A DNA stretch of 20,982 nt from a virus, in IMG/VR virus record IMGVR_UViG_3300002835_012783, positions 1 through 20,982 of that record; one strand, written 5' to 3'. Within the stretch, counting starts at the first letter, position 1. The number at the start of each line of letters is the position of its first letter. The notes under the pieces were generated by a model, which made no database searches, had not been told where the DNA came from, and saw nothing but the letters and a program-made list of their open reading frames with translations. The translations under genes and the position numbers were made by a program. This document shows, piece by piece, positions 4,403 through 20,982 of this stretch.

Positions 4403-4410
4403 GTTGTTTT

Positions 4411-4428
4411 TTTATTATACATATTACG
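4411..4428 (-). promoter_or_regulatory. Possible late-type promoter variant upstream of the endonuclease gene
   Basis: On the minus strand this reads CGTAATATGTATAATAAA, ending 8 bases before ATG 4402. It shares the core TATAATAAA with the seven CATACATATAATAAA sites but not the CATAC part. It is a weak candidate because the surrounding DNA is very AT-rich. Confidence 0.35.
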
Positions 4429-4463
4429 TATTAATAGGAAAAACAACAATCCTTATATCCTTT

Positions 4464-4479
4464 TTTATTATATATTATG
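4464..4479 (-). promoter_or_regulatory. Late-type promoter variant between the repeat-protein and endonuclease genes
   Basis: On the minus strand this reads CATAATATATAATAAA, close to the CATACATATAATAAA motif with one inserted or changed position. It lies 61 bases upstream of ATG 4402 and 16 bases after the stop of the gene at 4496-4726. Either this or the element at 4411-4428 may drive the endonuclease, kinase and secreted-protein genes, since no stronger element is seen further downstream. Confidence 0.4.
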
Positions 4480-4495
4480 GGTTGCCCTTAAAATG

Positions 4496-4726
4496 TTATA
4501 CTCTTGATCCTTTACGTTGAGCTCCTTTAAACCATGGCAAACCATTATGAATACGTTTTGATTCATGATGACGATCTTTAGTAACCTGAATGCCATTAAG
4601 ATAATATTCTTGTTTTCCATCAGGATGAATTACAGCAGGACCATTATCGTTATGAAGTTTACCTTTCCAAACGTACATAATAGTTCCGTCAGCTGTCTTG
4701 ATTTGTTTTAATTGATCGATTTTCAT
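4496..4726 (-). CDS. Small protein with GPAVI/MORN-like repeat
   Basis: 76 residues. Residues about 17-50 read MYVWKGKLHNDNGPAVIHPDG followed by KQEYYLNG, a short repeat type (W-x-G-K-x-H...GPA-x-I...DG...E-Y-Y-x-N-G) that is widespread in phages and large DNA viruses and related to MORN-like repeats. Its function is unknown. The N-terminus MKIDQLKQI resembles the MKLNQLRQLI start shared by three genes at 14931-16042, although the EE that follows in those is missing. The gene is preceded by a class-2 promoter-like element at 4745-4776 and, further upstream, by an intrinsic terminator, so it starts its own transcription unit. Confidence 0.65.
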   Translation of the reverse strand: MKIDQLKQIKTADGTIMYVWKGKLHNDNGPAVIHPDGKQEYYLNGIQVTKDRHHESKRIHNGLPWFKGAQRKGSRV

Positions 4727-4744
4727 ATGTGTTTTTATTTATGC

Positions 4745-4776
4745 ATAAATATAATAATAATATTTCAGGAAGCCAA
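4745..4776 (-). promoter_or_regulatory. Class-2 (host-sigma-like) promoter for the gene at 4496-4726
   Basis: On the minus strand, TTTG is followed after 20 bases by TATATTTA. This matches five of six defined bases of the Bacteroidetes -7 element TAnnTTTG, plus a -33 TTTG. The element also contains AAATATTATT-N3-ATATTTAT, shared exactly with sites at 15585-15605 and 16046-16066. It directly follows the terminator at 4783-4802 and ends 18 bases before the start codon. Confidence 0.6.
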
Positions 4777-4782
4777 ACAAAA

Positions 4783-4802
4783 AGAGCCTCTTTTGAGGCT
4801 CT
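4783..4802 (-). terminator. Intrinsic terminator after the gene at 4806-5414
   Basis: A perfect 8-bp stem AGAGCCTC / GAGGCTCT with a 4-base loop is followed on the minus strand by TTTTTG. It begins 3 bases after the stop codon of the upstream gene and ends the structural transcription unit. Confidence 0.9.
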
Positions 4803-4805
4803 ACA

Positions 4806-5414
4806 TTATTTCCAAAATTTAATATAGTTATTTTTTAAAAATTTATCAAAACCATACAATTTTAAACGTTGCATGGTTAACATGACTATATTTTGATTTG
4901 TTTTAGCTACTGTTTGTTTATCTCCTGTTATACTCCAGGGTATAAAAAATACTTGATAAAGTTCCCATAACCAACTAGAGTTTTGAGAATTAAGATTATC
5001 ATAGGTATCTTTATTTATTTCTATGAATTTAATTTCATTTATTTTTTTAGCGAAATATCTTCTAAATTCTCCAATTTGATAATCTTGAGGAGTAGGTTGA
5101 GGAACTATGGGGTATGGAATATTTTTAGGGGCCAATGAAGGATTAATAACATTTAAATATTCTAAATTACCATAAGCCACCTCACTAGTATATACAGGAG
5201 TAAAATTAACATCAGAATGTAATTCTCCAGGTACATTAGGTAAATTAATAAGTTTTTCAACTGGTTTATCTTCTGGTGTTTTACCAGTGAATAATTCTCC
5301 TGTGTATAATTTATGATAATGTCCTTTATATACTTGACCTGTACTTTCTATAGCATATTCATTTCCGTTTGTGTACAGATTTGTTATAATTCTGTTTTTA
5401 GGGTAATAGCTCAT
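4806..5414 (-). CDS. Conserved-looking phage structural or baseplate-associated protein, function unknown
   Basis: 202 residues, no signal peptide or membrane segment. The N-terminus has YYPKNRIITNLYTNGNEYAI followed by YKGHYHKLYTGELFTGK, a pattern I associate with a hypothetical protein often found after the baseplate hub in environmental T4-like phages. The middle is Pro-rich (NIPYPIVPQPTPQDYQ) and the C-terminal half is predicted helical (FRRYFAKKINEIKFIEI, LTMQRLKLYGFDKFLKN). The start codon shares one base with the hub stop (TAATG), so it is translationally coupled to the hub. A terminator follows directly. A baseplate or tail-assembly role is inferred from position only. Confidence 0.65.
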   Translation of the reverse strand: MSYYPKNRIITNLYTNGNEYAIESTGQVYKGHYHKLYTGELFTGKTPEDKPVEKLINLPNVPGELHSDVNFTPVYTSEVAYGNLEYLNVINPSLAPKNIPYPIVPQPTPQDYQIGEFRRYFAKKINEIKFIEINKDTYDNLNSQNSSWLWELYQVFFIPWSITGDKQTVAKTNQNIVMLTMQRLKLYGFDKFLKNNYIKFWK

Positions 5415-8371: not shown

Positions 8372-8372
8372 A

Positions 8373-8696
8373 TTATAAACTATTTAGAGTGTTAAAACTA
8401 GCGATAATATCGCTTACATTTACAGGTATACGTATTTGTATGCCTGGAGTGAGGAATAACGAATCCCCGCTTATTTTCTGGGGATTTGCGGCTGCTATTA
8501 TCCAATATAGAGTAACATCATTATAATATTGATTTGCTAATAGATCTAGCCTGTCCCCAAATCCTGTTATAACATAAATGTCACTAGACCTAAGAGGTAT
8601 TTCAGGATATTTAGTTGTGTCATAATACCGTTTACCTATGGGTCTGATGACATCATCCGTTGTTCTAGATTCTTGTATGTTTTGGTAACGATTCAT
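8373..8696 (-). CDS. LysM-like baseplate protein (gp53 / P2 gpX type)
   Basis: 107 residues. Residues about 38-92 form a LysM-like domain: SDIYVITGFGDRLDLLANQYY, then YWIIAAANP and LTPGIQIRIP. This is the form used in phage baseplates, where a short LysM protein binds the hub or wedge (T4 gp53, P2 gpX), rather than a cell-wall-binding enzyme. It lies directly before the hub gene with a 1-base gap. A late-type promoter ends only 2 bases before its ATG, so its mRNA may have almost no leader. The next in-frame Met is not close, so the start is kept. Confidence 0.8.
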   Translation of the reverse strand: MNRYQNIQESRTTDDVIRPIGKRYYDTTKYPEIPLRSSDIYVITGFGDRLDLLANQYYNDVTLYWIIAAANPQKISGDSLFLTPGIQIRIPVNVSDIIASFNTLNSL

Positions 8697-8698
8697 GT

Positions 8699-8713
8699 TT
8701 TATTATATGTATG
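8699..8713 (-). promoter_or_regulatory. Late-type promoter motif before the LysM-like gene
   Basis: An exact copy of CATACATATAATAAA on the minus strand. It lies 7 bases after a terminator hairpin and 2 bases before ATG 8696. Confidence 0.7.
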
Positions 8714-8720
8714 GTAAGAA

Positions 8721-8744
8721 AAAGCTTGCTGAGAGGCAAGCTTT
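8721..8744 (-). terminator. Intrinsic terminator after the gene at 8785-10989 (second hairpin of a pair)
   Basis: A perfect 9-bp stem AAAGCTTGC / GCAAGCTTT with a 6-base loop is followed on the minus strand by TTCTTACC. The T-tract is short but the stem itself ends in TTT. Confidence 0.75.
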
Positions 8745-8747
8745 CGG

Positions 8748-8768
8748 TCCATGAATACTCTTCATGGA
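8748..8768 (-). terminator. Upstream hairpin of the tandem pair after the gene at 8785-10989
   Basis: A perfect 8-bp stem TCCATGAA / TTCATGGA with a 5-base loop lies 16 bases after the upstream stop codon. It has no T-tract of its own, so it may protect the 3' end of the mRNA or assist the following terminator. Confidence 0.5.
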
Positions 8769-8784
8769 GGGGTTCATATTTTAT

Positions 8785-10989
8785 TTATACTAAATTTACT
8801 GGGATACCATTAACTGGTAAATTAGAGATAACAGAAGTATTATTTCCTGATATTGGTGGGTCTAAGACTTCGTTTCTTATATTTGTTGAATTGTTGTAAT
8901 AATTATAATGGCTGTATCCGTTTTCATTACCAGTGCTTTTAGAATCTCCTCCATTTCTTAAACTTATAAATGGACTACCTTTTCCTGATTTATCAGTTGC
9001 TCTTCTTGGTAAGAAATCTTGAATTGGAGTAAATCCTAAATCTACATTTATTATATGAGGTAATTCTTTAACTGAGTTATCAGATTCAGTTTTACTGTTA
9101 CCTATATTGATTTCCCAAGGAGATTGTTCAGGAATAGTGTAATTTAATGAAGTTATAATACCTGGGGTTTCAAACAGATAAGCTCCCATTGTCATTTTAT
9201 ATAAGGTACCTCTCATAAAACCTGCTTCTGTATAGTCAGGGGCTAGGGTGGAGGCTAGATAGTTTAGTTTATAATACATGGGCATTAGCTCTTGTTTAGA
9301 TTGAGCGGCCACCGTAAAACTCATTTTAACATCTCTAGTGAAACCTTCATAATTATATAATGTATTACCCCTACCCACATAATTTATTGAATTCCATTTT
9401 GGAGTATATGAATCACTAAAATTATTAATGAATGCCCTAAAATGCATGTAAAAAGCATTTGCTGAGGTGTCATTTTTGTAGGCTGCTATATAAAAAGTAG
9501 CTAAGTCATTTAAACTATTAGGGTCATTTAATGTTGTAGCACCTCCGGAGGCCGCATCTAATTTTTTATATGAACCTTCATATATAGGTTCAGCTGTTAT
9601 CTTATCAAGAGCATTTTTTATATTATTTTCTCCACCAAACCCACCAAGGCCCCCTAATGTATAGTCTGATCTATCTTTAGTTCTAGAACCTGGGTCTCCT
9701 AAACTTACTCTATTCTCTATATTGTTAATTAAATAATTTGGGGAGAAAGATAAAATAGTTTTATTTTTTTCAATATCTAAATCTTTTCTAAAATCATCAA
9801 CTAATATTGAATTCCCACCTTGAATTGGTGTTTTACTATTGATCCCACCCTGAGTAAGTGCTGCTGTATTAGGATATAGTTGATTATAGTTAGAAGGAGT
9901 AAAGGTAGATAAAGTTTGATTAGCTGGGGATTGTTTAAAACCAAATGGGTTATTGGGGGTTTGGTTACCTGTATCTATATCAAACCCTAAAATAGAATTA
10001 TCTCCTCTAGATGAAATATTAGGGTTAAGGGATTGTTTTAAGAATATTGATGTATTACTAACTCCTAATTTACGAGTGATATTATCATATTCTAAAGAAT
10101 CTTTGTATGATCTTCTAGCATTAGTAGATTTAAAATAACCATCAGATTCTAAATTTTTCTTAATTTCAGGATTATTTACTCCTGTTCTTTCACTAGCAAA
10201 TCTAATATTAGTATTGTTTACTCCTAAAACAGAACCAGGACCTCCACCATAATTTAAAATACTACCCAAATTTTGAGTTGTATCAATAGGTATTCTATCT
10301 CTTTTTGGTACATTTACAAATGGTAATCCTTCAATTTTAACTCTATGAAGTTGAAGAAGTCTGTTATAATATTTACCTACTACTAAATTGGATGTATCTT
10401 CTTCTTTTTTCCTTTTCATCACCTCGGAATAAGTATTTATTCCTCCAGCCCCTAAAATGTCTTCTAATGTTGAATCGCCAGTATAAGCTCCTGTAGGTTT
10501 AAGTGGATTTAAACCTTGTTTATTTAAGTGAGTTCCTGTCCATCCTTGAACCGCTACTTGAGCCAGTGTTGAAGTTGGTAAATAAATACCTTCATTGACA
10601 GCTCCTCCTCCATATCCCACCCCGTAAGAGGCTTCAGTTTTAACTGCTGTTCTTGATAGTAAATTTTGATTAGCGGTAAATATTAAACCACGAGGTGATT
10701 TTAAATCAAAAAAATATTGAGTTAAACGCGATACATCTTTACCAGCATTAATAGGGGCCAATAAACCTCCCCTCACCAACGCATCAGGAAAACGCGCGGC
10801 TAAAACATCAAAAGGGGGATTATCTTCAGCTCCTATAGAATATCCAATTTGACCTGTGTTAGGATCATATCCTGATTGTAGGCCCGGGATTGGAGTAGTA
10901 ATATAGGGTTGATTACTAGATCCTCCTTTTAATTTATCTCCTCCGTATTTGAGATTTAAAAGGTTGGTTTTTAGGTTTATTAAAGCCAT
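8785..10989 (-). CDS. Large tail/baseplate structural protein
   Basis: 734 residues. I cannot name the family with certainty. The N-terminal half is rich in Gly, Asn and Ser with loops (GGGAVNEGIYLP, NYGGGPGSVLG) and no signal peptide. The C-terminal part, about 500-680, has a pattern seen in tail-tube initiation or baseplate proteins: FYMHFRAFINNFSD, GFTRDVKMSFTVAAQSKQEL, YKLNYLASTLAPDY, LYKMTMGAYLFETPGIITSL and SPWEINI. Its place between tape measure and baseplate genes supports a role at the tail tip, such as connecting tube and baseplate. It starts 9 bases after the 94-residue protein gene, with no promoter of its own, and ends at a tandem hairpin. Confidence 0.75.
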   Translation of the reverse strand: MALINLKTNLLNLKYGGDKLKGGSSNQPYITTPIPGLQSGYDPNTGQIGYSIGAEDNPPFDVLAARFPDALVRGGLLAPINAGKDVSRLTQYFFDLKSPRGLIFTANQNLLSRTAVKTEASYGVGYGGGAVNEGIYLPTSTLAQVAVQGWTGTHLNKQGLNPLKPTGAYTGDSTLEDILGAGGINTYSEVMKRKKEEDTSNLVVGKYYNRLLQLHRVKIEGLPFVNVPKRDRIPIDTTQNLGSILNYGGGPGSVLGVNNTNIRFASERTGVNNPEIKKNLESDGYFKSTNARRSYKDSLEYDNITRKLGVSNTSIFLKQSLNPNISSRGDNSILGFDIDTGNQTPNNPFGFKQSPANQTLSTFTPSNYNQLYPNTAALTQGGINSKTPIQGGNSILVDDFRKDLDIEKNKTILSFSPNYLINNIENRVSLGDPGSRTKDRSDYTLGGLGGFGGENNIKNALDKITAEPIYEGSYKKLDAASGGATTLNDPNSLNDLATFYIAAYKNDTSANAFYMHFRAFINNFSDSYTPKWNSINYVGRGNTLYNYEGFTRDVKMSFTVAAQSKQELMPMYYKLNYLASTLAPDYTEAGFMRGTLYKMTMGAYLFETPGIITSLNYTIPEQSPWEINIGNSKTESDNSVKELPHIINVDLGFTPIQDFLPRRATDKSGKGSPFISLRNGGDSKSTGNENGYSHYNYYNNSTNIRNEVLDPPISGNNTSVISNLPVNGIPVNLV

Positions 10990-10998
10990 GTTATATTC

Positions 10999-11283
10999 TT
11001 ACCCTGGAAGATTCAATAAGTATTGGTCAGAGTTTGGAATTACACCATTATTATAATCAAGTTGAGAAGGTTGAGGGAGAATGTTTGGGGTCCCATCAAC
11101 ATATCCTTGATACGCAGCATTGACTGTAGATTGGTTTGCTCCATTAACAGAGTAGCTAACTTGTGAACCATCAGCGTGAAGTTTAGACTGATTGGTAGCT
11201 AAAATATTGATAGCTGGGGTAGAACCATTTCCTGTAATAGAGTATGGGCTTCCTGTTTGAGTTAATTTGTTGAGTAGTGACAT
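10999..11283 (-). CDS. Small structural protein of unknown function
   Basis: 94 residues, polar and rich in Asn, Ser, Gln and Gly, without signal peptide or membrane segment. No family is recognised. It follows the tape measure gene and is preceded by a late-type promoter, so it heads the transcription unit with the large structural protein at 8785-10989. A baseplate or tail accessory role is inferred from position. Confidence 0.65.
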   Translation of the reverse strand: MSLLNKLTQTGSPYSITGNGSTPAINILATNQSKLHADGSQVSYSVNGANQSTVNAAYQGYVDGTPNILPQPSQLDYNNGVIPNSDQYLLNLPG

Positions 11284-11300
11284 AGTTTCTAGTTTTAATG

Positions 11301-11315
11301 TTTATTATATGTATG
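11301..11315 (-). promoter_or_regulatory. Late-type promoter motif before the 94-residue protein gene
   Basis: An exact copy of CATACATATAATAAA on the minus strand. It begins immediately after the TAA stop of the tape measure gene and ends 17 bases before ATG 11283. No terminator separates them, so read-through is likely. Confidence 0.7.
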
Positions 11316-13769
11316 TTAGGAGCCAGTACGATACTCAGCTAATGCTAAAGTTTTTCCTACTAAGTTACCATCTATTGATACATTTCCTTCTTTATTTAGG
11401 ATTGAAGTTAAAAGTTGATTCATTCTGTCTAATCGTTCAGCTAATGGTTGTATATTAATAGAGGAAGACATAATTGAAGTAGATTCTTTACTTTTTCCTA
11501 TTTTATTAGATATTCCTGGGGCTGCCACTAAATCATCATTTGGAGATAATTCAAATAATCCCCCTTCTTTAGTTGATACTGTGGTTTTTCCTTTGGCAGG
11601 GGATAACATATCACCAGCTTTATTAGCTTGATTTTTATTTTTTTCTAGATAGGCCATTCCTGCTCCGGCAGCGGCTAAAGCTATAGCTGCCCCCACTCCA
11701 AAAGTTAAAGAACTATTTAACACTAAAGCTGCTATACCAGCAGCTGTTAGTAATCCAACAATCACTCCCATAACATCACCAAAACTTTTACCCCAATTTA
11801 TAAGCCATCCTAATGGTTTTAACATAAGCCCTACAATACTAAAAATTGATGATAAAAGATCAAAAGCGGGCATTATTGCTTCTGCTACAGTCACAAATAT
11901 TTCTCTTAATTTTTCAACAGAAGCATTCATTCTGTCTTGAATTGAGGCTTGATTTTCTAAATCCTCAATACTTTTTTCTTTTAACATCTTTTGGGCTCCT
12001 TCTATCCCATATTGTTCTGTTAAACTATTTAATAATTCTTTTCTTTTCTCAACATCTTCTTTAGATACATCTTTCAGTTGGTCCTGAATAAATAGAGTTT
12101 TAGCTAATTCTTCTCGATTCATTCCTACTGACTTGGCTATAGCCTCTTGTTGTAAACGATTCATTTTACCAAACTCAGCAGAAGAGCCTAAATTTTTATT
12201 TATTTCTTCAGCAAGTCCTGCTACATCATTAGTTAAAGCATAATATCGAGCTTGTTCTAGATTTAATTGGCGGCCAGTTAATAATTCTGCTTCTAATTCT
12301 GATTCAATGGATGATTGGAAATTTAGTAAACTTTCTGCTATTGCATCTATCTTAGACATTTCTAAACCTAAAGATTTAGCTACAGCAACTGCCTCTGCTA
12401 TCAATGATGGGTTTTTTCCTAAAGAAAGGGTGGTGGCGGCAGAAACATCTTTTATTTCTTTTAAAACTTCTTTTTCATTTAATGCTACCCCTAATCTAGT
12501 TGAAGATATTTTAGCTTGAGCTAATACTTCTCCTGTGGCATCTTCTAAACTTTTATTAGTACCTAATGTTAATTTATATATACCCGCTAATTCTTCATTA
12601 GTTAGTCCTGCGGTTGTTCTGAATTTAGTTATAGTGGCTAAATCCTCTTTATTTAGCATAACATTAGTGCCTAATGTTTTATTTATCGCTAATAGAGATT
12701 CTTGCATTCCTTTAGTAGTAACAAATATATCACCGCTAGCATTGGCTGCTGAATTTAACTCAGAACTCATAAAAGAAGCGTCCTGGTAGGACATGTTCAT
12801 ACCTTTTGCTAGGTCTCCTGTTAATCCATCTACTAATTTGAAGGCATCTACTAATTCTTTTAATAGAGCTAATGGTCCTAAAGCTTTAGCTAAAGCTGGG
12901 CCTAGGGATTTAAGACCCGCCATTAAAGGAGTCATAGATTTCTCTGCTGCTTGGGGGATACCCATAGCCATAGCTTTTGACTTTGCTGCTGTATCCTCTA
13001 AAAGATTTCCATGTTCATCAACTAATCCTAATCTTGTTTTTAATTCAGCACTAATTCCTTTTCCTGTTTTTAAGCTTTCAATTTCTTTATCAGTTAAACC
13101 TTTAGTTATACCATATATTTTTTGATTGTATATGGCTGTTTCTTGAGCGGCCTTTGATGCGTCTTGAAAAGCTGAAGAAAATTTACCTAAACCAGGAATA
13201 GCATTAGATATAGCATCTAACCCGGTAAAAAGTTTTATTCCTGCGTCTTTTTTAATTTTTTCTTGTTCTTTTCTGACACCCTGGAGGGCTTCAAAGAATT
13301 TTCTTTCTTCTTCAGCTTGGCCTTTAATTTCCTCTAATTTATCCCCTTCAATTCTCCCTGATTGGATAGCTACTTGTAAATTTTGAAATTGAAGCTTAGC
13401 TTTTTTTTCTAGTTTATCTAAAGTTTTACCTTCAATTAAAACTCCTTGAGAATTTTCATATACTATTTCTTGAGCTATTTTAGATATTGAACTTAAAGCA
13501 TTTTTAGCACTAGATAATTCTGTATTTTGTTTGCTTAGCTCGGCTACACTGTCTTTAAATGATTTATAAATAAAACTTAATTCACTATTTAAATCATCCG
13601 CGGCATTTACTACATCCCTGAATAAAGTTTCAAATTTTTCTAATTCAGCAGTGTTAGCTTTAAGATCTCTAAGTATACTTTGATAATATGCTTGTTCTCT
13701 AGCATTCAATTTAGCTAAAGTTCCTTCTATCTGTTTTATTTTATCAGCTAATTCTTTTGCAGTTGCCAT
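11316..13769 (-). CDS. Tail tape measure protein
   Basis: 817 residues. The N-terminal about 240 residues are Lys/Glu-rich coiled coil (KELADKIKQIEGTLAKLN onward). A central helical region follows, with Ala-rich segments. A hydrophobic stretch lies near residues 640-710 (SIVGLMLKPLGWLINW, VIVGLLTAAGIAALVL, GVGAAIALAAAGAGMAYL), typical of tape measures that insert into membranes during ejection. Length, composition and position right after the overlapping chaperone genes support the call. The family rule of about 0.15 nm per residue gives a tail near 120 nm; this is an estimate. It has its own late-type promoter 7 bases before the ATG. Confidence 0.9.
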   Translation of the reverse strand: MATAKELADKIKQIEGTLAKLNAREQAYYQSILRDLKANTAELEKFETLFRDVVNAADDLNSELSFIYKSFKDSVAELSKQNTELSSAKNALSSISKIAQEIVYENSQGVLIEGKTLDKLEKKAKLQFQNLQVAIQSGRIEGDKLEEIKGQAEEERKFFEALQGVRKEQEKIKKDAGIKLFTGLDAISNAIPGLGKFSSAFQDASKAAQETAIYNQKIYGITKGLTDKEIESLKTGKGISAELKTRLGLVDEHGNLLEDTAAKSKAMAMGIPQAAEKSMTPLMAGLKSLGPALAKALGPLALLKELVDAFKLVDGLTGDLAKGMNMSYQDASFMSSELNSAANASGDIFVTTKGMQESLLAINKTLGTNVMLNKEDLATITKFRTTAGLTNEELAGIYKLTLGTNKSLEDATGEVLAQAKISSTRLGVALNEKEVLKEIKDVSAATTLSLGKNPSLIAEAVAVAKSLGLEMSKIDAIAESLLNFQSSIESELEAELLTGRQLNLEQARYYALTNDVAGLAEEINKNLGSSAEFGKMNRLQQEAIAKSVGMNREELAKTLFIQDQLKDVSKEDVEKRKELLNSLTEQYGIEGAQKMLKEKSIEDLENQASIQDRMNASVEKLREIFVTVAEAIMPAFDLLSSIFSIVGLMLKPLGWLINWGKSFGDVMGVIVGLLTAAGIAALVLNSSLTFGVGAAIALAAAGAGMAYLEKNKNQANKAGDMLSPAKGKTTVSTKEGGLFELSPNDDLVAAPGISNKIGKSKESTSIMSSSINIQPLAERLDRMNQLLTSILNKEGNVSIDGNLVGKTLALAEYRTGS

Positions 13770-13776
13770 TCTGTAT

Positions 13777-13791
13777 TTTATTATATGTATG
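13777..13791 (-). promoter_or_regulatory. Late-type promoter motif before the tape measure gene
   Basis: An exact copy of CATACATATAATAAA on the minus strand. It starts 4 bases after the terminator stem at 13796-13816 and ends 7 bases before ATG 13769. Confidence 0.75.
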
Positions 13792-13795
13792 GAAA

Positions 13796-13816
13796 AAGCC
13801 CACTTTTGGTGGGCTT
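13796..13816 (-). terminator. Intrinsic terminator after the chaperone genes
   Basis: A perfect 8-bp stem AAGCCCAC / GTGGGCTT with a 5-base loop runs into a T-tract on the minus strand (GGGCTTTTTCC). It overlaps the TAA stop of the chaperone's second frame. Confidence 0.9.
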
Positions 13817-14186
13817 ATTTCTTCATACTAGTAGAATATGTTGGTTTTTTAGCACTTCTCATAAATTCAGGAACATTAACATTTCCTTGGGAATCTATAA
13901 TAGTGGTCGTGTCTTTACCTTTGGATGCTTTTTCGTATTCTTGGGCCTCCTTATCATAAAAGGATTTTAGTTCATGGAATGTAAAATTTCTTAACCATAT
14001 AGGCATGTGATAGATAGTTTCCCAATCATATCCTCCTTTACCATGAAAAACAATTTCATGGATTTGTTTAAATAAATTTTTACGTGTTTGGGGTGCTGTC
14101 TCCAAACTCAGGCCAAAAAAATTCAATCCCAACTGGGATATTGACTCTATTGTCACTGTTGTTGGGAAAAAAAGTAAGATCAACAT
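13815..14186 (-). CDS. Tail assembly chaperone, second frame (GT-like), probably made by frameshift from the upstream gene
   Basis: The open frame has 123 codons, but its first 107 bases overlap the gp26-like gene in another frame. The meaningful part starts near residue 22 (NFFGLSLETAPQ) and continues TRKNLFKQIHEIVFHGKGGYDW, MPIWLRNFTFHELKSFYD, with a charged C-terminus. There is no convincing start: ATG 14186 begins with hydrophobic residues that are a by-product of the other frame. Position directly before the tape measure and overlap with the preceding gene match the G/GT chaperone arrangement of tailed phages. A +1 (or -2) shift on the T7 run at 14115-14121 would give a fused protein of about 337 residues. 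An internal start is the alternative. Confidence 0.75.
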   Translation of the reverse strand: MLILLFFPTTVTIESISQLGLNFFGLSLETAPQTRKNLFKQIHEIVFHGKGGYDWETIYHMPIWLRNFTFHELKSFYDKEAQEYEKASKGKDTTTIIDSQGNVNVPEFMRSAKKPTYSTSMKK

Positions 14187-14829
14187 CTGGCTGAACTTTT
14201 CTGATGTAATCTCTAAGTGCTCGAGAATCTCGAGCTAAGAGATAATTATCTACAAATTCTCGAATTGTTTTCTTTTCTCGATCTCCATCAACTGATGTAA
14301 TAATATACTTTAAACGAGTAGTTAATTCTGGTGTTGCTTCTTTATTGATTTTCTTTAATCCTTCAAGTTCACGTTCAATATCTCTTTCATCTTTATGAGA
14401 TAAGATTTTGAATGTAATGGAGGTATTTGTTGTAGGTAATGTATAAGAAAATTCATTTACTCCTTTAGTAAATAAACTTTCATCCAGTGGTTTATTCTCA
14501 ATTTGAGTTAAATCAACTGTATGTTCCTCTCCATTATAAGTAAATGTGTAATTTCCTCCATAACCCAAAATACGAGCTGCTACCATTATAGCGTTTTTAT
14601 CACCCACAATTAAATCATCATAATTAACGGGAGAAACAATGAGAGCCTGCATTAACTTGTCCAATACGACACCCTTTTGGATATATGACTGGTTGGTTAG
14701 AATATCCTCGTGTTTTGCGGTCATATAACTCATTTCAATTTTACCTGATGATAAGATATTATCTTCAGGGTAGAGTAAACCTTTTGATGGTAATTCAACT
14801 GTTTCAGTTGGTAACTTTAATTCTGCCAT
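14080..14829 (-). CDS. T4 gp26-like baseplate/tail assembly protein (chaperone G analogue)
   Basis: 249 residues. The N-terminal half matches the T4-type baseplate assembly family (T4_baseplate in Pfam, by memory): LPSKGLLYPED (13-23), IEMSYMTAKHEDILTN (31-46), KGVVLDKLMQALI (52-64) and LIVGDKNAIMVAARILGYG (73-91). It ends in GIEFFWPEFGDSTPNT. The last 11 codons follow a T7 run where the second frame may be entered. Position before the tape measure suits a tail assembly chaperone that holds the tape measure while the tube forms. A late-type promoter variant ends 18 bases before the ATG. Confidence 0.85.
   Translation of the reverse strand: MAELKLPTETVELPSKGLLYPEDNILSSGKIEMSYMTAKHEDILTNQSYIQKGVVLDKLMQALIVSPVNYDDLIVGDKNAIMVAARILGYGGNYTFTYNGEEHTVDLTQIENKPLDESLFTKGVNEFSYTLPTTNTSITFKILSHKDERDIERELEGLKKINKEATPELTTRLKYIITSVDGDREKKTIREFVDNYLLARDSRALRDYIRKVQPDVDLTFFPNNSDNRVNIPVGIEFFWPEFGDSTPNT
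14113..14124 (-). other. Probable programmed frameshift site
   Basis: On the minus strand the bases are GAATTTTTTTGG, read in the gp26-like frame as GAA TTT TTT TGG. The second frame reads AAT TTT TTT GGC. A Phe-tRNA in the P site on TTT can re-pair with the next TTT, moving the ribosome +1 (equivalent to -2 in frame). A second T7 run followed by CCC lies at 14167-14173 in the same overlap and is an alternative site. A one-base homopolymer error in the assembly would have the same look. Confidence 0.55.
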
Positions 14830-14847
14830 AGACTATTTTTATTATGT

Positions 14848-14862
14848 TCTATTATATGTATG
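14848..14862 (-). promoter_or_regulatory. Late-type promoter motif before the gp26-like gene
   Basis: The minus strand reads CATACATATAATAGA, one base from the consensus. It lies 24 bases after the terminator at 14887-14908 and ends 18 bases before ATG 14829. Confidence 0.7.
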
Positions 14863-14886
14863 TACGATATGAAAAAGAAATAAAAA

Positions 14887-14908
14887 AGCCAAACATTTCT
14901 GTTTGGCT
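14887..14908 (-). terminator. Intrinsic terminator after the three small tagged genes
   Basis: A perfect 8-bp stem AGCCAAAC / GTTTGGCT with a 6-base loop is followed on the minus strand by TTTTTTA. It lies 22 bases after the stop of the gene at 14931-15299. Confidence 0.9.
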
Positions 14909-14930
14909 CTTTATTAAATGTTAGTTGTTT

Positions 14931-15299
14931 TTAAAAATCATCATCATCATCCTCATCATCATCCTCATTAAATTCTTCATCATCTCTGAATGAATCATAT
15001 ATATCGTCTTCTGTACTCGAACTAAAGTTTTCGTATGTTAATTCACCATTAGTTAATTTAACTAGCATATCAATTACATCATCTGGTTGGTTTTTAACCA
15101 TTATATCCCAATAATCTCCAACCATCTTATCATCCATTGTCCCACCAGTTATTTTTGATAGTATATTAGTTATAAAATCAGGTTGATTTTCAACTAAATA
15201 AGTAAATGACTTTTTAACAAGATCCTCAACAGGATTTGATTCATTCATAACTTCAGAGATCTCCTCTCTGATTAGTTTTCTTAGTTGATTTAGTTTCAT
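14931..15299 (-). CDS. Small acidic protein with MKLxxLRxLIxEE N-terminus
   Basis: 122 residues, no known family. The first 20 residues (MKLNQLRKLIREEISEVMNE) are nearly the same as in the next two upstream genes. The middle has two similar halves of a short unit: LVENQPDFITNILSKITGGT and MVKNQPDDVIDMLVKLTNGE, an internal duplication of about 40 residues. The C-terminus is an acidic tail (DDEEFNEDDDEDDDDDF). It starts 2 bases after the upstream stop, so it shares an mRNA with the gene at 15302-15571. A virion-targeting role for the N-terminus is only a hypothesis. Confidence 0.7.
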   Translation of the reverse strand: MKLNQLRKLIREEISEVMNESNPVEDLVKKSFTYLVENQPDFITNILSKITGGTMDDKMVGDYWDIMVKNQPDDVIDMLVKLTNGELTYENFSSSTEDDIYDSFRDDEEFNEDDDEDDDDDF

Positions 15300-15301
15300 A
15301 G

Positions 15302-15571
15302 TTATTGTTTATACATACTGTATAATTTTTTAACCTTTTCCTCATATCCAAGATTCTTAAGTTGATTCATAAGAGACTTAATTTCTTCGTGCTGATATTC
15401 ACCTCGTCTATATGCTCTATGATCATCAGACATAAAATATGTCCAATCATGAGTCTTTAAAAGAGATTCTAGTTTGTTAAATAATTCTTGAGATGTTGAT
15501 GACATTGTTTCATCTCCGTTCATTGAGGCTAATTCCTCTCTAATTAATTGTCTTAATTGATTTAGTTTCAT
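15302..15571 (-). CDS. Small protein with MKLxxLRxLIxEE N-terminus
   Basis: 89 residues, no recognised family. The N-terminus MKLNQLRQLIREELASMN is shared with its neighbours. The rest is polar and helical with aromatic residues (LLKTHDWTYFMSDDHRAYRRG, MNQLKNLGYEEKVKKLYSMY). A class-2 promoter-like element ends 13 bases before its ATG and overlaps the stop of the upstream gene. The gene at 14931-15299 follows after 2 bases. Confidence 0.7.
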   Translation of the reverse strand: MKLNQLRQLIREELASMNGDETMSSTSQELFNKLESLLKTHDWTYFMSDDHRAYRRGEYQHEEIKSLMNQLKNLGYEEKVKKLYSMYKQ

Positions 15572-15584
15572 AGTTTTTGTTTTT

Positions 15585-15605
15585 ATAAATATACGAATAA
15601 TATTT
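15585..15605 (-). promoter_or_regulatory. Class-2 promoter-like element before the gene at 15302-15571
   Basis: The minus strand has AAATATTATT, then CGT, then ATATTTAT, with the same spacing as the other two copies. The -7-like TATATTTA is present, but the TTTG expected 20 bases upstream is absent. It overlaps the TAA stop of the upstream gene. Confidence 0.5.
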
Positions 15606-16042
15606 TAGGTAGATTTATGTTGGAATCCTTTACCGGCCATAAGTTGTGATCCTCTTTGATTTAACCATTTTTTAGCTTTGTTTAATGAAGCCGCTACATT
15701 ATATTGACCATGAACCTTTTCACCAGGAATGTCTTCTAATTTATTTCCATTTTTATCCATTATGTAAGTCTGAATATAATAAAAATAATGATGAGGAAGA
15801 TTAAAATCTAATTCTTCACCTTCAGGGGTTAAAACATATCCCTGAGTTTTAAGTTGAAAATTTAATCCTTCAGGAGTAGTATACATTTCATCTTTTATAT
15901 CAAGTGTATATTTATCATGTATTTTATTCCCAAACTCACTTTTACTAGTTTCTTTAGAGATTATTTTGTAAGATGGATTTACCTCATTAATAGCTTTAGA
16001 AATTTCCTCTTTGATTAGTTGTCTTAATTCTTGTAATTTCAT
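15605..16042 (-). CDS. Protein with MKLxxLRxLIxEE N-terminus, function unknown
   Basis: 145 residues, no recognised family. The N-terminus MKLQELRQLIKEEISKAINE belongs to the shared set. The rest is a mixed alpha/beta domain with GNKIHDKYTLDIKDEMYTTP, LTPEGEELDFNLPHHYFYY and KAKKWLNQRG near the end. It lies between the tube gene and the next tagged gene, each with a class-2 element. The promoter element ends 3 bases before the ATG, so little or no leader is expected. Confidence 0.7.
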   Translation of the reverse strand: MKLQELRQLIKEEISKAINEVNPSYKIISKETSKSEFGNKIHDKYTLDIKDEMYTTPEGLNFQLKTQGYVLTPEGEELDFNLPHHYFYYIQTYIMDKNGNKLEDIPGEKVHGQYNVAASLNKAKKWLNQRGSQLMAGKGFQHKST

Positions 16043-16045
16043 GAT

Positions 16046-16077
16046 ATAAATATAATAATAATATTTTAGATAGCCAA
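16046..16077 (-). promoter_or_regulatory. Class-2 (host-sigma-like) promoter before the gene at 15605-16042
   Basis: The minus strand has TTTG, 20 bases, then TATATTTA, the same arrangement and spacing as at 4745-4776, including GGCT after TTTG. It contains AAATATTATT-N3-ATATTTAT at 16046-16066. It starts at the stop codon of the tube gene and ends 3 bases before ATG 16042. Confidence 0.6.
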
Positions 16078-16078
16078 A

Positions 16079-16567
16079 TTAGAAGTTCAAAATACAGTAA
16101 TCCATTCCTAAAGTTAGAGTCAAGTTTTGAGCTACTGATTCATTATCCCATGAAAAATCACCTTGAGCAAAGTTCTTAATAAAAGCTCCTTTGATGATCC
16201 ATTCAGAAACAATATCACCTACTGGACCTAGAATGTCTAAAGTAATATCTTTTTTATAGAAATCAGAATAACCATCTCTACCTGTTACTGATTCATGATG
16301 TAGACGAACCCATTCCATACAAGCTTGAGCACCTGAAGGAGTAATTGGGTCAAATAATGTTAAAGTAACATCATTCCAGGTTAATTTACCTTTTACTTTA
16401 CGGTAAACATTGATGTGGTTAAGTTTGATTTCGTCTTGAGAAAATCCTAGACCACTGATTCCTTTAATTGTATAAGCGGGGATTCCGTCAATATACATAA
16501 TAAAACGATTCTGTAGTTTAGGTTCAAAAGCGGTAAAGAATATTTCGTTTGGATTTAGTACTGCCAT
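16079..16567 (-). CDS. Tail tube protein (gp19-like)
   Basis: 162 residues, the usual length for T4-type tube proteins. Motifs: FEPKLQNRFIMYIDGIPAYTIKG (14-36), SQDEIKLNHINVYRKVKGK with the tube-type loop, LTWNDVTLTLFDPITPSGAQA, and C-terminal FAQGDFSWDNESVAQNLTLTL. This is the T4 gp19 family. The protein stacks as rings around the tape measure to make the inner tube. It follows the sheath gene in the standard T4-like order. A late-type promoter variant ends 18 bases before the ATG, allowing separate expression from the sheath. Confidence 0.93.
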   Translation of the reverse strand: MAVLNPNEIFFTAFEPKLQNRFIMYIDGIPAYTIKGISGLGFSQDEIKLNHINVYRKVKGKLTWNDVTLTLFDPITPSGAQACMEWVRLHHESVTGRDGYSDFYKKDITLDILGPVGDIVSEWIIKGAFIKNFAQGDFSWDNESVAQNLTLTLGMDYCILNF

Positions 16568-16585
16568 TTTAGTATATTTATTTGT

Positions 16586-16600
16586 TCTATGATATGTATG
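16586..16600 (-). promoter_or_regulatory. Late-type promoter motif before the tube gene
   Basis: The minus strand reads CATACATATCATAGA, two bases from the consensus and the most diverged of the seven sites. It ends 18 bases before ATG 16567. Confidence 0.6.
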
Positions 16601-16615
16601 TTATTTTTACAAAGT

Positions 16616-18349
16616 TTATGCAAATGTTACTCCAGTAGGTAGAATGTTAAAATCTAAATAAACAAATTCAGCAGTTTTGGTAGGTTGTAAATAAATACCA
16701 CCTCTTAACTCATTTCTGTCAATCACATCTGGAGTATTATTTGAATCATCCATTACTACTCTAAATGCATATAGACCTTGTCTTTGTTGTACAGATTCAA
16801 GATATGGATTAACTTGAGCTAGGAATTGATTTCTAGTGGCAGTAGTGTTTTGTTCAAATACTAAGTTGTCTGCTACTTGAGAAATATATCCTTTTAACTC
16901 AATTAACAATCTTCTAACATTTACTCTATCAAGAGCTGATGCTTGTTTTTGTAGTGTTTTCTGTCCAAATACTACTACACCAGTATTAGGGAATGTAGCA
17001 ATTGGGTTTACTTTTCCTTGATATAAAGTATCTCTGTCTGAGTTGATTAATTTACGTTCAGCTTGAATTACTTGACCTAATCCACCTCTGTTAATACCTG
17101 CAGGGGCAAACCATGCTTCAGCAATTCTATCGTTATTAGCGTAAACTCCAGGGATCATAGTAGAAGCTGGAACCCATACATTTTTACCTGAGTCTGGGTC
17201 TGTGGTTTGTAACCAAGGCCAGTAAGCAGCAGCATATGAAGTATCACGAGAAGCAGCTTGACTAGTTACAGCACCAATTGAAGAACCATATCCTACTAGG
17301 TCAATAGGGGCAATAGCATCTCCTCTATTTTCAATATTTGTAATTAAAGTACTTAATACTGTTGAATGACCTGCAAATGCATCAATTAAGCCAGGAGCTG
17401 AAATAATGTTGTATCTGTATTCGTCTTTATTTGCTAATAAATTAAACACATCAGTATAATTGGTTCCTACTAAACCTTGTGAGTTAGTATTAGTAATATC
17501 TTGGTAATATTTGTTATTTCCTCCGATATTACCAGTAGCATTTTCAAAAGCACCACTTTGTGCAATTGGAATAGAAGAAGTATAGGCATTAATTCTAACA
17601 TCACCATTACTATCAAGATAATCTACAGTAGTTAGAGATACATTGCTTACTCTTACATAGCGAGAAGAGTTACGATATGAACCAGATGGTTGTAGATAAA
17701 TATCAGCTGTACCCGCGTTACGAGTAGTTAAGGTTTGATCACCAATAATTCTAGCTACGTAATTTGAGGAATTAGGATCTAAAGATAAGTTAGTCCATGT
17801 TTCTAGAACAGTTTTGTTATTTGTTCTATCATCACCTCTTCTAATTAATAAACCAAAAGTACCTGAGGCAGTATTAGGAGAAACAATTTCCCATCTTAAA
17901 TTATCTCTTGAACCGCTTGCTAATACACCTTGAGCATCTTCTGGGCCTACACTGTTCATAATTACACCATCACTTAGAGTTTCTAAAGTAAAGGCATTTA
18001 ATGAACCAATGTTAGCACTTGAGGAAATGGGTTGAGATACTGCTGGAGTATATGAACCTGAGGCTACTCTAGTTACAATTAAACTAGTTCCACCATTTTG
18101 GAAATAGTTGTAAGCTGAGATAGAGGTAAAATAAGTATATGTTTGAGCATCTGTTACTGATCCACTGTTAAAAGTAGTACCAAAATAAGCTTGATACTCA
18201 CTATAAGTAGTAATAAGTTTAGGTACTCCTACTTTACCTTTTACAGTTGGACCAACAAGAGCGGCTCCAGCTTGAATAGGTAAGCTAGTAACTTGAGATT
18301 GGTCGTTTTCTCTAGCTAGTACACCGGGTGATAGTAAAATTTCTGCCAT
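16616..18349 (-). CDS. Tail sheath protein (gp18-like)
   Basis: 577 residues. The N-terminus LSPGVLARENDQSQVTSLPIQ with GAALVGPTVKG is typical of contractile sheaths. The C-terminal domain has WVPASTMIPGVYANNDRIAEAWFAPAGINRG, LYQGKVNPIATFPNTGVVVFGQKTL, RVNVRRLLIELKGYI and a late ELRGGIYLQPTKTAEFVYLDF. Sheath subunits surround the tube and contract to drive it through the envelope. The middle third (about 130-300) is the variable surface-exposed insertion region of this family. It is preceded by an exact late-type promoter and followed by the tube gene. Confidence 0.95.
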   Translation of the reverse strand: MAEILLSPGVLARENDQSQVTSLPIQAGAALVGPTVKGKVGVPKLITTYSEYQAYFGTTFNSGSVTDAQTYTYFTSISAYNYFQNGGTSLIVTRVASGSYTPAVSQPISSSANIGSLNAFTLETLSDGVIMNSVGPEDAQGVLASGSRDNLRWEIVSPNTASGTFGLLIRRGDDRTNNKTVLETWTNLSLDPNSSNYVARIIGDQTLTTRNAGTADIYLQPSGSYRNSSRYVRVSNVSLTTVDYLDSNGDVRINAYTSSIPIAQSGAFENATGNIGGNNKYYQDITNTNSQGLVGTNYTDVFNLLANKDEYRYNIISAPGLIDAFAGHSTVLSTLITNIENRGDAIAPIDLVGYGSSIGAVTSQAASRDTSYAAAYWPWLQTTDPDSGKNVWVPASTMIPGVYANNDRIAEAWFAPAGINRGGLGQVIQAERKLINSDRDTLYQGKVNPIATFPNTGVVVFGQKTLQKQASALDRVNVRRLLIELKGYISQVADNLVFEQNTTATRNQFLAQVNPYLESVQQRQGLYAFRVVMDDSNNTPDVIDRNELRGGIYLQPTKTAEFVYLDFNILPTGVTFA

Positions 18350-18366
18350 ATTATATTAGTATTTGT

Positions 18367-18381
18367 TTTATTATATGTATG
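18367..18381 (-). promoter_or_regulatory. Late-type promoter motif before the sheath gene
   Basis: An exact copy of CATACATATAATAAA on the minus strand. It ends 17 bases before ATG 18349 and lies 17 bases after the stop of the coiled-coil gene. Confidence 0.75.
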
Positions 18382-18398
18382 GCATAGATATTTCAAAG

Positions 18399-18650
18399 TT
18401 AAGAAACAGGGATAAATTCTCCCGTCTCTAATGAAATATTTCCTTTACCATACTTGGTTTCAATTTCTTTAATTAAATTTTGTTCGCGTTGTTGAATTTC
18501 ACTTAATTCTTTTTCTAGTTGTTCTTTTTGAACATTTAAATTAATTTGCTGAACTTCATTCATTCCTAATTTAAAAACTAATTCATCAAATTGGGTTCGT
18601 AAACTTCCGATTTGTTTCATTTCTTCTTCTGTTAAAACCTTTTTTTCCAT
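18399..18650 (-). CDS. Small coiled-coil protein, function unknown
   Basis: 83 residues. Residues about 5-68 are a Gln/Glu/Lys-rich coiled coil (EMKQIGSLRTQFDELVFKLG, QINLNVQKEQLEKELSEIQQ). The end has KYGKGNISLETGEFIPV, a short pattern I recall from small proteins of environmental phages but cannot tie to a function. It lies 13 bases after the repeat-protein gene and shares its mRNA. It could be a chaperone or a trimerisation partner for the fibre-like protein; this is inference. Confidence 0.75.
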   Translation of the reverse strand: MEKKVLTEEEMKQIGSLRTQFDELVFKLGMNEVQQINLNVQKEQLEKELSEIQQREQNLIKEIETKYGKGNISLETGEFIPVS

Positions 18651-18663
18651 AATTTATTTATTT

Positions 18664-20025
18664 TTAAGTTAATAATACAAAACCTGTGAATACTACATAA
18701 GCTGTTCCTGATCCTAAATTGTTATTTACTTCTATAACTCCAGTTGAACTATCTAAAGTGATATTTAAGCCATTACTATAACTAGTTAAAACAGTATTAG
18801 CAGTTATAAAAGCAGTATCTCCTAAATGTTTTCCTACTAATATAGGAAAAGCTGCTGATGTGAACAAACCTCCTGTCATAGTACCACTTCCTGCTATCAT
18901 CTGGAATTTTGAGCCACTTTGGACAGTGGGTACTGCTGAGGAACTTACTTGATAATATCCATAAACATAATCTGCATCTGTTGCTTTACTAGCATAAGAG
19001 GCACTAACTACACTTCCTAATAATAAAGAAGCGGTAGCAGCATAAGAGGAAGATAAAGCTGTTGAAGCAAAGGATGCTGAAGTTGATGTTAAAGCACTTG
19101 CAGCAGTTGTTGCTGAGGTTGCTGTTGTTGCTGAGGTTGCTGTTGTTGCTGAATCAGCTGTGACCGCGTAAGAGGCACTAACTACAGTTCCTAATAATAA
19201 TGAGGCTGTAGCAGCATATGAAGCAGAAGTTGCTGTAGTAGCGGAAGTTGCTGATATTGCTGTTGTAGCTACATTAGCTGAGTTTGCTGTTGTTGCTGTA
19301 GTAGCAGTTGCCGCTAAAGTAGCATAAGAGGCACTAACTGCATTTAAAACATATGAGGCAGTTGTTGCTGTAATGGATGTAGTGGCAGTTTCTGCTAAAA
19401 TAGCAAAAGAAGCTGTATTAGCCAAAGAAGCAGTAGCGGCATATGATGCACTTTGTACTGTTCCTAACAATAAGGAAGCTGTAGCAGCATATGAAGCAGA
19501 AGTTGCTGTGGTTGCTATTGAAGCTGAATTTGCTATAGTGGCTAAATCCGCTAAAGCTGAAATTAAAGCATATGAGGATGTTAAAGCTGTGGTAGCAAAA
19601 CTAGCAGTTACAGCATAGGAGGCACTTACTACACTTAAAGCTAAACTTGATGTGGTTGAATTTACCGCGTAAGAGGCTGAGGTTGAGGTAAGAGCATAAG
19701 ATGAGGAAATAGTAAAGGAGGCAGTTTGGGCATTCGCTACATATGAGGATGTTTGAGCAAAGGAAGCTGTTAAAGCTTGTTGTATAAATGAGGCAGTTAA
19801 TGCATTTGATGCTGTTAAAGCTTGATTGGCATATGAGGCTGTTCCTTGTAAAGATCCAGTTAAACCTCCAGAATCCATTGATAATGAACCTGTGATAATT
19901 AAGCTACCACTTATAGTTATGTCATAAGCTGCTGCTCCAGTTAATGCATCTATTGATTGTGATACATGAGCCGCCTCAATTGTTGAGGTGTTGTTTATAC
20001 CACTATTTGATAATATTAATGCCAT
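18664..20025 (-). CDS. Ala/Ser/Thr-rich repeat protein, probable fibre or whisker
   Basis: 453 residues. After an N-terminal domain (1-60, ISGSLIITGSLSMDSGG) about 300 residues consist of degenerate short repeats built on ASYA-x-TAS and SATTAT units. SASYAATASLLLGTV-type segments recur several times. The C-terminal about 90 residues (from DADYVYGYYQVSSS) are non-repetitive and may be a head or trimerisation domain. Such patterns occur in phage fibre shafts. It lies between gp15-like and sheath genes, an unusual site for a tail fibre, so a neck whisker or head-tail decoration is possible. A late-type promoter ends 7 bases before the ATG. Confidence 0.8.
   Translation of the reverse strand: MALILSNSGINNTSTIEAAHVSQSIDALTGAAAYDITISGSLIITGSLSMDSGGLTGSLQGTASYANQALTASNALTASFIQQALTASFAQTSSYVANAQTASFTISSSYALTSTSASYAVNSTTSSLALSVVSASYAVTASFATTALTSSYALISALADLATIANSASIATTATSASYAATASLLLGTVQSASYAATASLANTASFAILAETATTSITATTASYVLNAVSASYATLAATATTATTANSANVATTAISATSATTATSASYAATASLLLGTVVSASYAVTADSATTATSATTATSATTAASALTSTSASFASTALSSSYAATASLLLGSVVSASYASKATDADYVYGYYQVSSSAVPTVQSGSKFQMIAGSGTMTGGLFTSAAFPILVGKHLGDTAFITANTVLTSYSNGLNITLDSSTGVIEVNNNLGSGTAYVVFTGFVLLT
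19000..19860 (-). repeat. Degenerate coding repeats of the fibre-like gene
   Basis: The DNA repeats short Ala/Ser/Thr codon blocks. Two perfect 18-base copies lie at 19115-19132 and 19133-19150 (GAGGTTGCTGTTGTTGCT on the plus strand). Longer near-copies encode SASYAATASLLLG around 19010-19050, 19180-19220 and 19430-19490. Boundaries are approximate. Confidence 0.8.
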
Positions 20026-20032
20026 TTACTAT

Positions 20033-20047
20033 TTTATTATATGTATG
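20033..20047 (-). promoter_or_regulatory. Late-type promoter motif before the fibre-like gene
   Basis: An exact copy of CATACATATAATAAA on the minus strand. It begins immediately after the TAA stop of the gp15-like gene and ends 7 bases before ATG 20025. Confidence 0.75.
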
Positions 20048-20914
20048 TTAGAAATTTGGGAGAGTATTATCTGGTCCAATTTGAGTTTCAAAGTTAAATA
20101 CTACTTTGGTTTTATCTGAGAATTTATTTTGGGCTGATAATTCTTTATTTGTAGTATCAGGGATGATATATCCGTATAAACGTAGAGAGAAATTAGTTTT
20201 TACTACTCTTTGTTCACCTTGTGGTAATTCAGTAGTATTAGCAAATGAATCAATTCTAGCTTGAAACTTAAATTGTTCTGGATTTCCCCAATATGAATCT
20301 GAGGCATAGTTTATTGCTTCAACTATTTTATTCATTTGTTCAACATAATATGTTGAAACTATGCATTCATAAGTTAAAGTAACATAATCAGGCATAACCA
20401 CAGCATAATATTGTTTTTGTGGTTTTCGATTATTCAGAATATTGAATTTATCATAAGCATTTTTAGGGGAGTATGCTTTAGTAAATACTTTATAATTGTT
20501 AGGATTATTAGCGTCAAGTTTATTAGCTATTGAACGATTTTTTTCTATATTAGTTCGTTTAAAGACAATCAAAGGCATCATAATTTTTCCTTTTTTATCT
20601 CTATAGAAACCATCTTTTTGAACTGCTTTCCATCTTTCAGGAGAACCATAAACTATAGGTACAGGAATTCTTGTACCATTTTGTATTACTGTAGGACGAA
20701 TAATATTTTCAAAGTAATAAATTATTGCTCCATCAATATCTTCTAGTCCAACACTAAATGGTTTTGTAGTATCACCTTTAAATGATAATTCCTCTGCTCT
20801 ATTAGTTGGATCTACAACATTAGGATTACCTCTAGTAGTATCATATGCCTGTTGCTGAGATATGCTTATTTCCCGTTGTGTTTTGGGTGTTGGTGTTTTT
20901 CCTTTCTTAGCCAT
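20048..20914 (-). CDS. Tail sheath stabiliser/completion protein (gp15-like)
   Basis: 288 residues, against about 272 for T4 gp15. The pattern follows gp15: IIYYFENIIRPTVIQ (64-78), IPVPIVYGSPERW (83-95), IMMPLIVFKRTNIEKNRS, then VTLTYECIVSTYYVEQMNKIVEAINYASDSYWG and a late FKFQARIDSFANTTELPQGEQRVVKTNFSLRLYGYIIP. gp15 caps the tail and joins it to the neck. About 50 residues at the N-terminus are low-complexity and basic. Its start overlaps the end of the upstream gene by 8 bases, suggesting coupling. The call rests on motif memory, not a search. Confidence 0.75.
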   Translation of the reverse strand: MAKKGKTPTPKTQREISISQQQAYDTTRGNPNVVDPTNRAEELSFKGDTTKPFSVGLEDIDGAIIYYFENIIRPTVIQNGTRIPVPIVYGSPERWKAVQKDGFYRDKKGKIMMPLIVFKRTNIEKNRSIANKLDANNPNNYKVFTKAYSPKNAYDKFNILNNRKPQKQYYAVVMPDYVTLTYECIVSTYYVEQMNKIVEAINYASDSYWGNPEQFKFQARIDSFANTTELPQGEQRVVKTNFSLRLYGYIIPDTTNKELSAQNKFSDKTKVVFNFETQIGPDNTLPNF

Positions 20915-20982
20915 TGTATCTTTCTTTAGTAATACCTACACGATCAGCAGGTACTAAGTGGGTTGAACAAATGATAGAAACA
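20907..20982 (-). CDS. C-terminal end of an upstream gene (partial), possibly a neck protein
   Basis: A frame open from the window edge ends at TAA 20909-20907, giving 24 residues (ICSTHLVPADRVGITKERYNG at the end). The stop overlaps the start of the gp15-like gene by 8 bases, the same tight packing seen elsewhere. In T4 the gene before gp15 is neck protein gp14, so that is a candidate, but the fragment is too short to identify. Confidence 0.55.
   Translation of the reverse strand, partial: VSIICSTHLVPADRVGITKERYNG

Follow-up and report, generated by a model that had tools for sequence, protein, structure and literature searches.

A probable late promoter of a Bacteroidota myovirus lineage and a candidate gp55-like sigma factor that changed with it

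What is the 15-base motif that recurs in a single orientation before the virion genes of this phage, and which protein reads it? The DNA analyzed here (the window, 20,982 bases) comprises an entire IMG/VR record and represents part of a T4-like myovirus genome. Its nearest isolate is the Flavobacterium phage immuto (160 kb), with 54% identity in the tail sheath, and the two share their gene order from sheath, tube, hub, and tape measure onwards. Among the minus-strand genes of the window are those for the tail sheath protein (16616-18349; phrog_23, E 8e-73), the tail tube protein (16079-16567; phrog_4542, E 1e-22), a baseplate hub subunit (14080-14829; phrog_150, E 2e-7), and a baseplate wedge/hub protein (8373-8696; phrog_7145, E 6e-12), and the gene at 11316-13769 occupies, by gene order, the position of the immuto tape-measure gene. 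The minus-strand genes at 563-1132, 1125-1667, and 1670-2512 encode proteins with matches to CHU_C, a domain of type IX secretion signals (E 2e-16), to an Omp28 domain (E 3e-12), and, weakly, to PKD/Ig-like domains, i.e., surface or secreted host-type proteins on a phage. Immuto itself has an annotated queuosine-type pathway together with DpdA (L195, 18607-37015), which suggests 7-deazaguanine DNA modification. From sequence comparisons, we assign a probability of roughly 80% to the motif being the late promoter of a Bacteroidota myovirus lineage, read by a gp55-like phage sigma factor that changed with it; very probably, it acts as the late-infection switch for the virion genes.

The motif is real. 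The first-pass annotation had listed seven copies in one orientation, and all seven were recovered where it had placed them, all on the minus strand (five exact, one with one mismatch, and one with two). The exact copies lie at 8699-8713, 2 nt upstream of the baseplate gene; at 11301-11315, 17 nt upstream of gene 10999-11283; at 13777-13791, 7 nt upstream of gene 11316-13769; at 18367-18381, 17 nt upstream of the sheath gene; and at 20033-20047, 7 nt upstream of gene 18664-20025. The site with one mismatch (14848-14862) precedes the hub gene by 18 nt, and the one with two mismatches (16586-16600) precedes the tube gene by the same distance, a form that recurs at the tube gene of five other loci (L007, L008, L150, L162, and L191). 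The copies thus stand just upstream of start codons (2 to 18 nt), as had been described, but the list of sites was incomplete. It had missed a probable degenerate eighth site (AATATGTATAATAAA; 4411-4425, minus strand), 8 nt upstream of gene 3653-4402, and a late element of the old type (CATATTTATAACAAA; 3132-3146, minus strand), 8 nt upstream of gene 2524-3123 and inside the end of gene 3129-3665. With one mismatch at most, the window contains 6 sites versus 0.04 expected, and none of 100 dinucleotide shuffles reached 6; with up to three mismatches there are 14 versus 4.8 expected, so that weak sites by themselves mean little. Where a gene of the window lacks the motif, it mostly follows closely on another gene or has a different promoter. 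Three sites directly follow intrinsic terminators, in agreement with the original description: hairpins with T-runs on the minus strand at 8720-8745 (RNA fold of -12.3 kcal/mol, z -4.3), 13796-13816 (-12.6 kcal/mol, z < -4), and 14883-14912 (-16.3 kcal/mol, z < -4) stand in front of the sites at 8699, 13777, and 14848, respectively.

The same element is present at the same places in IMG/VR relatives, as ATATTTATAA, and CATAYRTATAAYAAA is confined to the lineage of the window, in which two adjacent positions have changed from TT to mostly CA. Tail sheath relatives number at least 598, counted among the first 600 pattern matches. Upstream of the sheath gene, CATACATATAATAAA is found in six loci with 95 to 98% sheath identity and is replaced by a TATTTATA-type sequence in relatives at 61 to 71% (78 of 80 loci were compared, a few of them with little or no upstream sequence; L012 and L017 were left out because the match begins inside the gene). 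For ATA-NN-TATAA, we then tallied the central dinucleotide over the 45 nt that precede ORF starts, overlapping contigs being counted separately. The 21 lineage loci gave CA 49, TA 17, CG 12, TT 5, and 6 others among the eight commonest. TT accounted for 223 of 243 sites in 73 sheath relatives, where 223 of the 241 copies of ATATTTATAA on both strands fall inside such 45-nt stretches, and for 144 of 158 in the sigma relatives L201 to L279. The share was just 10 of 27 in the immuto-like sigma relatives L280 to L359, which means that in the available stretches of that branch the element is either less frequent or shorter.

Across 32 lineage loci, 84 of the 88 sites with no more than one mismatch are found at most 25 nt upstream of an ORF start; many of these loci overlap, and the sites represent 36 distinct downstream genes. 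Two of the remaining four are at a distance of 134 nt, and two have no downstream ORF in their fragment. The reversed motif did not occur in these 32 loci. The motif is therefore not equally common inside genes, the pattern that had been put forward as telling against a promoter. An IMG/VR-wide scan for the 15-mer up to 20 nt before an ATG returned 111 stretches. Among the 109 that were examined, one or more immuto-like proteins are encoded by 52 (by some of these, generic enzymes only) and 17 share more than 300 bases of DNA with the window; further stretches carry portal, terminase, capsid, baseplate, or primase regions of the same kind of genome. Judged by these sequences, the motif of the window is a lineage variant of a putative family-wide promoter.

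Early genes of the family, those of the window's lineage included, retain instead a host-type promoter with two boxes, TTTG ... TATATTTA. Expectation-maximization on upstream regions gave as second motif TTCkTATATTTAggTAtaa, with AGTTG ca. 20 nt upstream, and both boxes of these early sites (AGTTG ... TTCkTATATTtA) are strongly conserved. In contrast, the late sites show no strongly conserved column upstream, that is, no -33/-35 box. In having a single -10-type element and no conserved -35 region, they agree with late promoters of the T4 type. The promoter type of the host sigma-A consists of TTTG at -33 and TAHHTTTG at -7 (PMC6847099). The late sites have neither box, and the early sites of the same phages match this type except for the final G, which is often A. 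Two early promoters of the form TTTGGCT-N-TATATTT were located on the minus strand of the window, at 16048-16078 before gene 15605-16042 and at 4747-4777 before gene 4496-4726. A search for sigma-70-type promoters yielded no signal (81 matches in 4000-20982 versus 84.7 in shuffles). In the immuto genome, 43 early-type sites were located, 38 of them short of 77 kb, and 15 of the 24 late-type sites are found beyond 90 kb; the reversed controls gave 3 and 7 matches, respectively, so a fair share of the late-pattern matches there are due to chance. One lineage contig (G024) combines 18 early-type ORFs, TTTGGCT ... TATATTTA (reversed control, 4), with five late sites of the new form and two TTTATAA-type ORFs; the early type was kept and the late sites took the new form, which indicates that the late element alone has moved.

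This comparison bears on the best-surviving competitor, a late promoter read by the primary sigma factor of the host with a phage activator standing in for the -33 contact (the arrangement of T4 middle transcription), the phage's sigma-like protein then doing something else. The TATTTATA of most relatives does resemble the -7 box TAHHTTTG (PMC6847099), and the early and late motifs of the family have TATTTA in common. However, the late sites of the lineage have lost the TTT of that box (TACATATA) and the early sites on the same contigs have kept it, which speaks against a shared reader, since such a reader should hold both. We regard this explanation as unlikely.

The distance from the late element to the start codon, counted between the first T of the 8-mer and the A of the ATG, is broad overall (mostly 10 to 41 nt) and has a sharp lower limit, with start codons from 10 to 13 nt on and hardly ever closer. 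The sheath relatives contributed 152 sites, with 22 at 10 to 13 nt, one at -31, and none between. The smallest offset of 48 lineage sites is 12 nt (three are at 12 to 13), half of those in the sigma-relatives set (16 of 32) are at 11 to 13, and the 15 immuto sites include one at 9 and one at 12. Placing the 8-mer as in T4 (-13 to -6) would put the transcription start at or beside the A of the ATG in the genes with the shortest offsets, which suggests that the late mRNAs of several genes are nearly leaderless. Leaders of F. johnsoniae exceed 10 nt in most transcripts (PMC6847099). Near-leaderless late mRNAs, if real, would have a bearing on translation in hosts without Shine-Dalgarno sequences. 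The genes at 14931-15299, 15302-15571, and 15605-16042 of the window, as well as 8474-8821 of L127 (all on the minus strand), share an N terminus of the form MKL-x-x-LR-x-LI-[RK]-EE. Similar N termini (MKTDILKKLIKEAVREAIQE) occur in relatives at the genes with the shortest distance from promoter to ATG; the shared MKL-type N terminus is possibly a common targeting segment.

Proximity to start codons would also fit a translation-initiation or mRNA leader element that is no promoter at all, the more so as the last part of the motif is A-rich and A at -3 and -6 is preferred by the ribosomes of Flavobacterium (PMC6847099). Nevertheless, the breadth of the spacing, the absence of the motif from genes inside tight operons, the location of three sites after terminators, and the different sequence used by host-type early genes in these phages make it very improbable. 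Least probable of all is an operator through which a phage repressor or activator acts on ordinary promoters: one orientation and high conservation would fit it as well, but the surroundings of the sites show no conserved second promoter box, and the terminator stems, 4 nt from the motif at 13777 and 6 nt at 8699, leave no room for one.

A candidate for the gp55-like sigma gene that the first-pass annotation had recommended looking for lies outside the window, and its protein was therefore read in relatives. A Sigma70_r2 search over 18 records found a subthreshold match (E 1.9e-4) on the contig of L127, which belongs to the window's lineage; T4 gp55 itself scored 0.0045. The matching ORF, of 243 aa, lies directly before a motif-bearing gene, and its immuto homologue is gp118, annotated as hypothetical. 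A gp118-family protein is present in single copy in 8 of 10 records (immuto and seven large relatives) and absent from T4 and from one fragment. Among 88 members, 38 matched the PHROG late sigma factor family phrog_234 at E ≤0.1 (best, 0.0011) and 31 matched phrog_11747, a family of unknown function, with better E values. Profile comparison with gp55 by hhalign gave a collinear alignment at an insignificant E of 0.15, and the candidate passed no family cut-off. The best PDB sequence match could be attributed to chance (E 0.24), and a phmmer search with T4 gp55 against the immuto ORFs returned no match. With phrog_12791 and Sigma70_r4, T4 alone was matched among the 18 records, the 17 non-T4 records giving no Sigma70_r4 match.

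Two AlphaFold models were obtained for the family (pLDDT, 76 and 80). For the first, T4 gp55 (7d7c_F) ranked first (Z 10.2 over 112 residues, 3.4 Å); for the second, the best 50 chains listed were all sigma factors, gp55 (7d7c) not being among them, which rules nothing out. Chains titled RPSB and RPSH in the latter set we take to be sigma-B and sigma-H. Foldseek on its own reached best E values of 0.13 and 0.02 for the two models. The candidate has an additional C-terminal helical domain that aligned loosely with full sigma chains in the second model; the large rmsd and the lack of a profile match give little support to a region 4-like reading of this domain. A search with phrog_223 revealed no gp45-like clamp in the nine non-T4 records. 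Overall, this conserved hypothetical protein likely contains a sigma region 2 and may belong to the gp55 family, and we infer that it is the sigma factor that reads the late element. In searches of open-licence papers, we recognized no description of this promoter or protein.

The candidate has also changed where the motif has. None of the 12 lineage sigma loci has TT sites, and in the other groups TT prevails wherever there are sites (counting the six commonest dinucleotides per sigma group). We compared the 12 lineage proteins with 110 others. Fifty positions are at least 98% conserved in the others, and six of these are altered in the lineage, all twelve proteins carrying the same changes: I45L, F49Y, F51I, Y52R, K94L, and F170H. 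As a control, the tail sheath (5 lineage proteins versus 31 others) differs at 1 of 150 conserved positions. Over the whole region 2 half there is no significant enrichment (5 of 33 conserved positions changed versus 1 of 17, P 0.65), F170H being outside region 2; in the patch 45 to 53, which was picked after seeing the data, 4 of 8 positions changed (P 0.004). Reading the weak gp55 alignment (E 0.15) residue by residue by eye, position 45 corresponds to gp55 L54, a pocket residue whose change to alanine impairs initiation, and position 88 to Y97, which stacks on A-12 (PMC7892883); position 94 is six residues further on the same helix. F49Y and R52 are also found in relatives with TATTTATA-type sites, and one of these loci (L454, with L51 and R52) has TATTTATA before the gene that follows its sigma gene, so that residue 52 by itself does not set the motif class. 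Positions 45, 94, and perhaps 51 are thus better candidates. As the co-change is one evolutionary event on one branch, the link from residue to base is a correlation with n = 1. Against this reading speak the old-type copy at 3132-3146 of the window and a further contig, G025 (L460 and L461). The first ~3 kb of G025 are 99% identical to L138, a locus of the lineage, and the rest has no lineage matches bar short pieces. Identity is 97% across sigma residues 1 to 91, and its 40 kb hold no site of the new form and six TTTATAA-type sites (five by a stricter window); G025 may be mosaic or chimeric.

Taken together, the sites stand at the likely transcription-unit starts of virion genes and differ from the early promoters, and a sigma-like protein is altered in the same lineage, all of which favors the original proposal, a late promoter whose reader is a phage-encoded sigma factor with a specificity of its own. 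In the model that we propose, the late promoter would consist of one -10-type element, TACATATA, itself part of CATACATATAATAAA, and would lack a -33/-35 box. It would be read by host RNA polymerase with a phage-encoded gp55-like sigma factor (243 aa, immuto gp118 family), and early genes would rely on promoters of the host sigma-A type. Transcription would start ca. 11 to 13 nt past the first T of the element, leaving several late mRNAs almost leaderless, and promoter and sigma factor would have shifted together in the lineage from the family form TATTTATA. A bolder version, to which we give slightly less than even odds, is that a large, so far uncharacterized group of Bacteroidota myoviruses uses for late transcription a distinct, new sigma factor branch, which combines region 2 with a C-terminal domain of unknown kind and is possibly clamp independent, that many late mRNAs start at or by the AUG, and that one lineage re-addressed all its late promoters at once through substitutions at residues such as 45, 51, and 94. 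The model would provide a common group of Bacteroidota phages with a late-transcription system, promoter and candidate reader, the latter now annotated as hypothetical. The lineage shift would be a natural specificity swap with many promoter sites and few candidate residues, which makes a change of sigma target with dozens of dependent sites directly testable.

The closest known system is that of T4, where gp55 acts together with the coactivator gp33 and the clamp gp45. Its late promoters are a single 8-bp AT-rich element of the -10 type with no conserved -35 region (PMC2988020), the same architecture as here. The consensus is TATAAATA in T4, TATTTATA in the family, and TACATATA in the lineage of the window, the latter two agreeing with T4 at six of eight positions each. 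The first-pass annotation was correct in that the core differs from both the T4 late and the Bacteroidetes types, but it is not unrelated to T4: all three have TA...ATA in common, and the positions -12 and -8, at which gp55 holds an A in deep pockets (PMC7892883), fall within it. The lineage element would thus work like the T4 one without being identical to it. In both cases there is a dedicated phage sigma factor with a region 2 fold, predicted in ours, although the candidate is longer than gp55 (about 230 to 243 aa), has the C-terminal helical domain, and shows weak sequence similarity. With respect to Bacteroidetes sigma-A, the early promoters here are of the same type, whereas the late element lacks the -33 box and, in the lineage, the TTT. 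Finally, the T4-family Aeromonas phage Aeh1 has a/gC instead of TA at -13/-12 of its late consensus (PMC2988020) and is, by analogy, a precedent for a shift of this kind; here the change lies at -11/-10 in the T4 register, with the changes of the candidate reader mapped as well.
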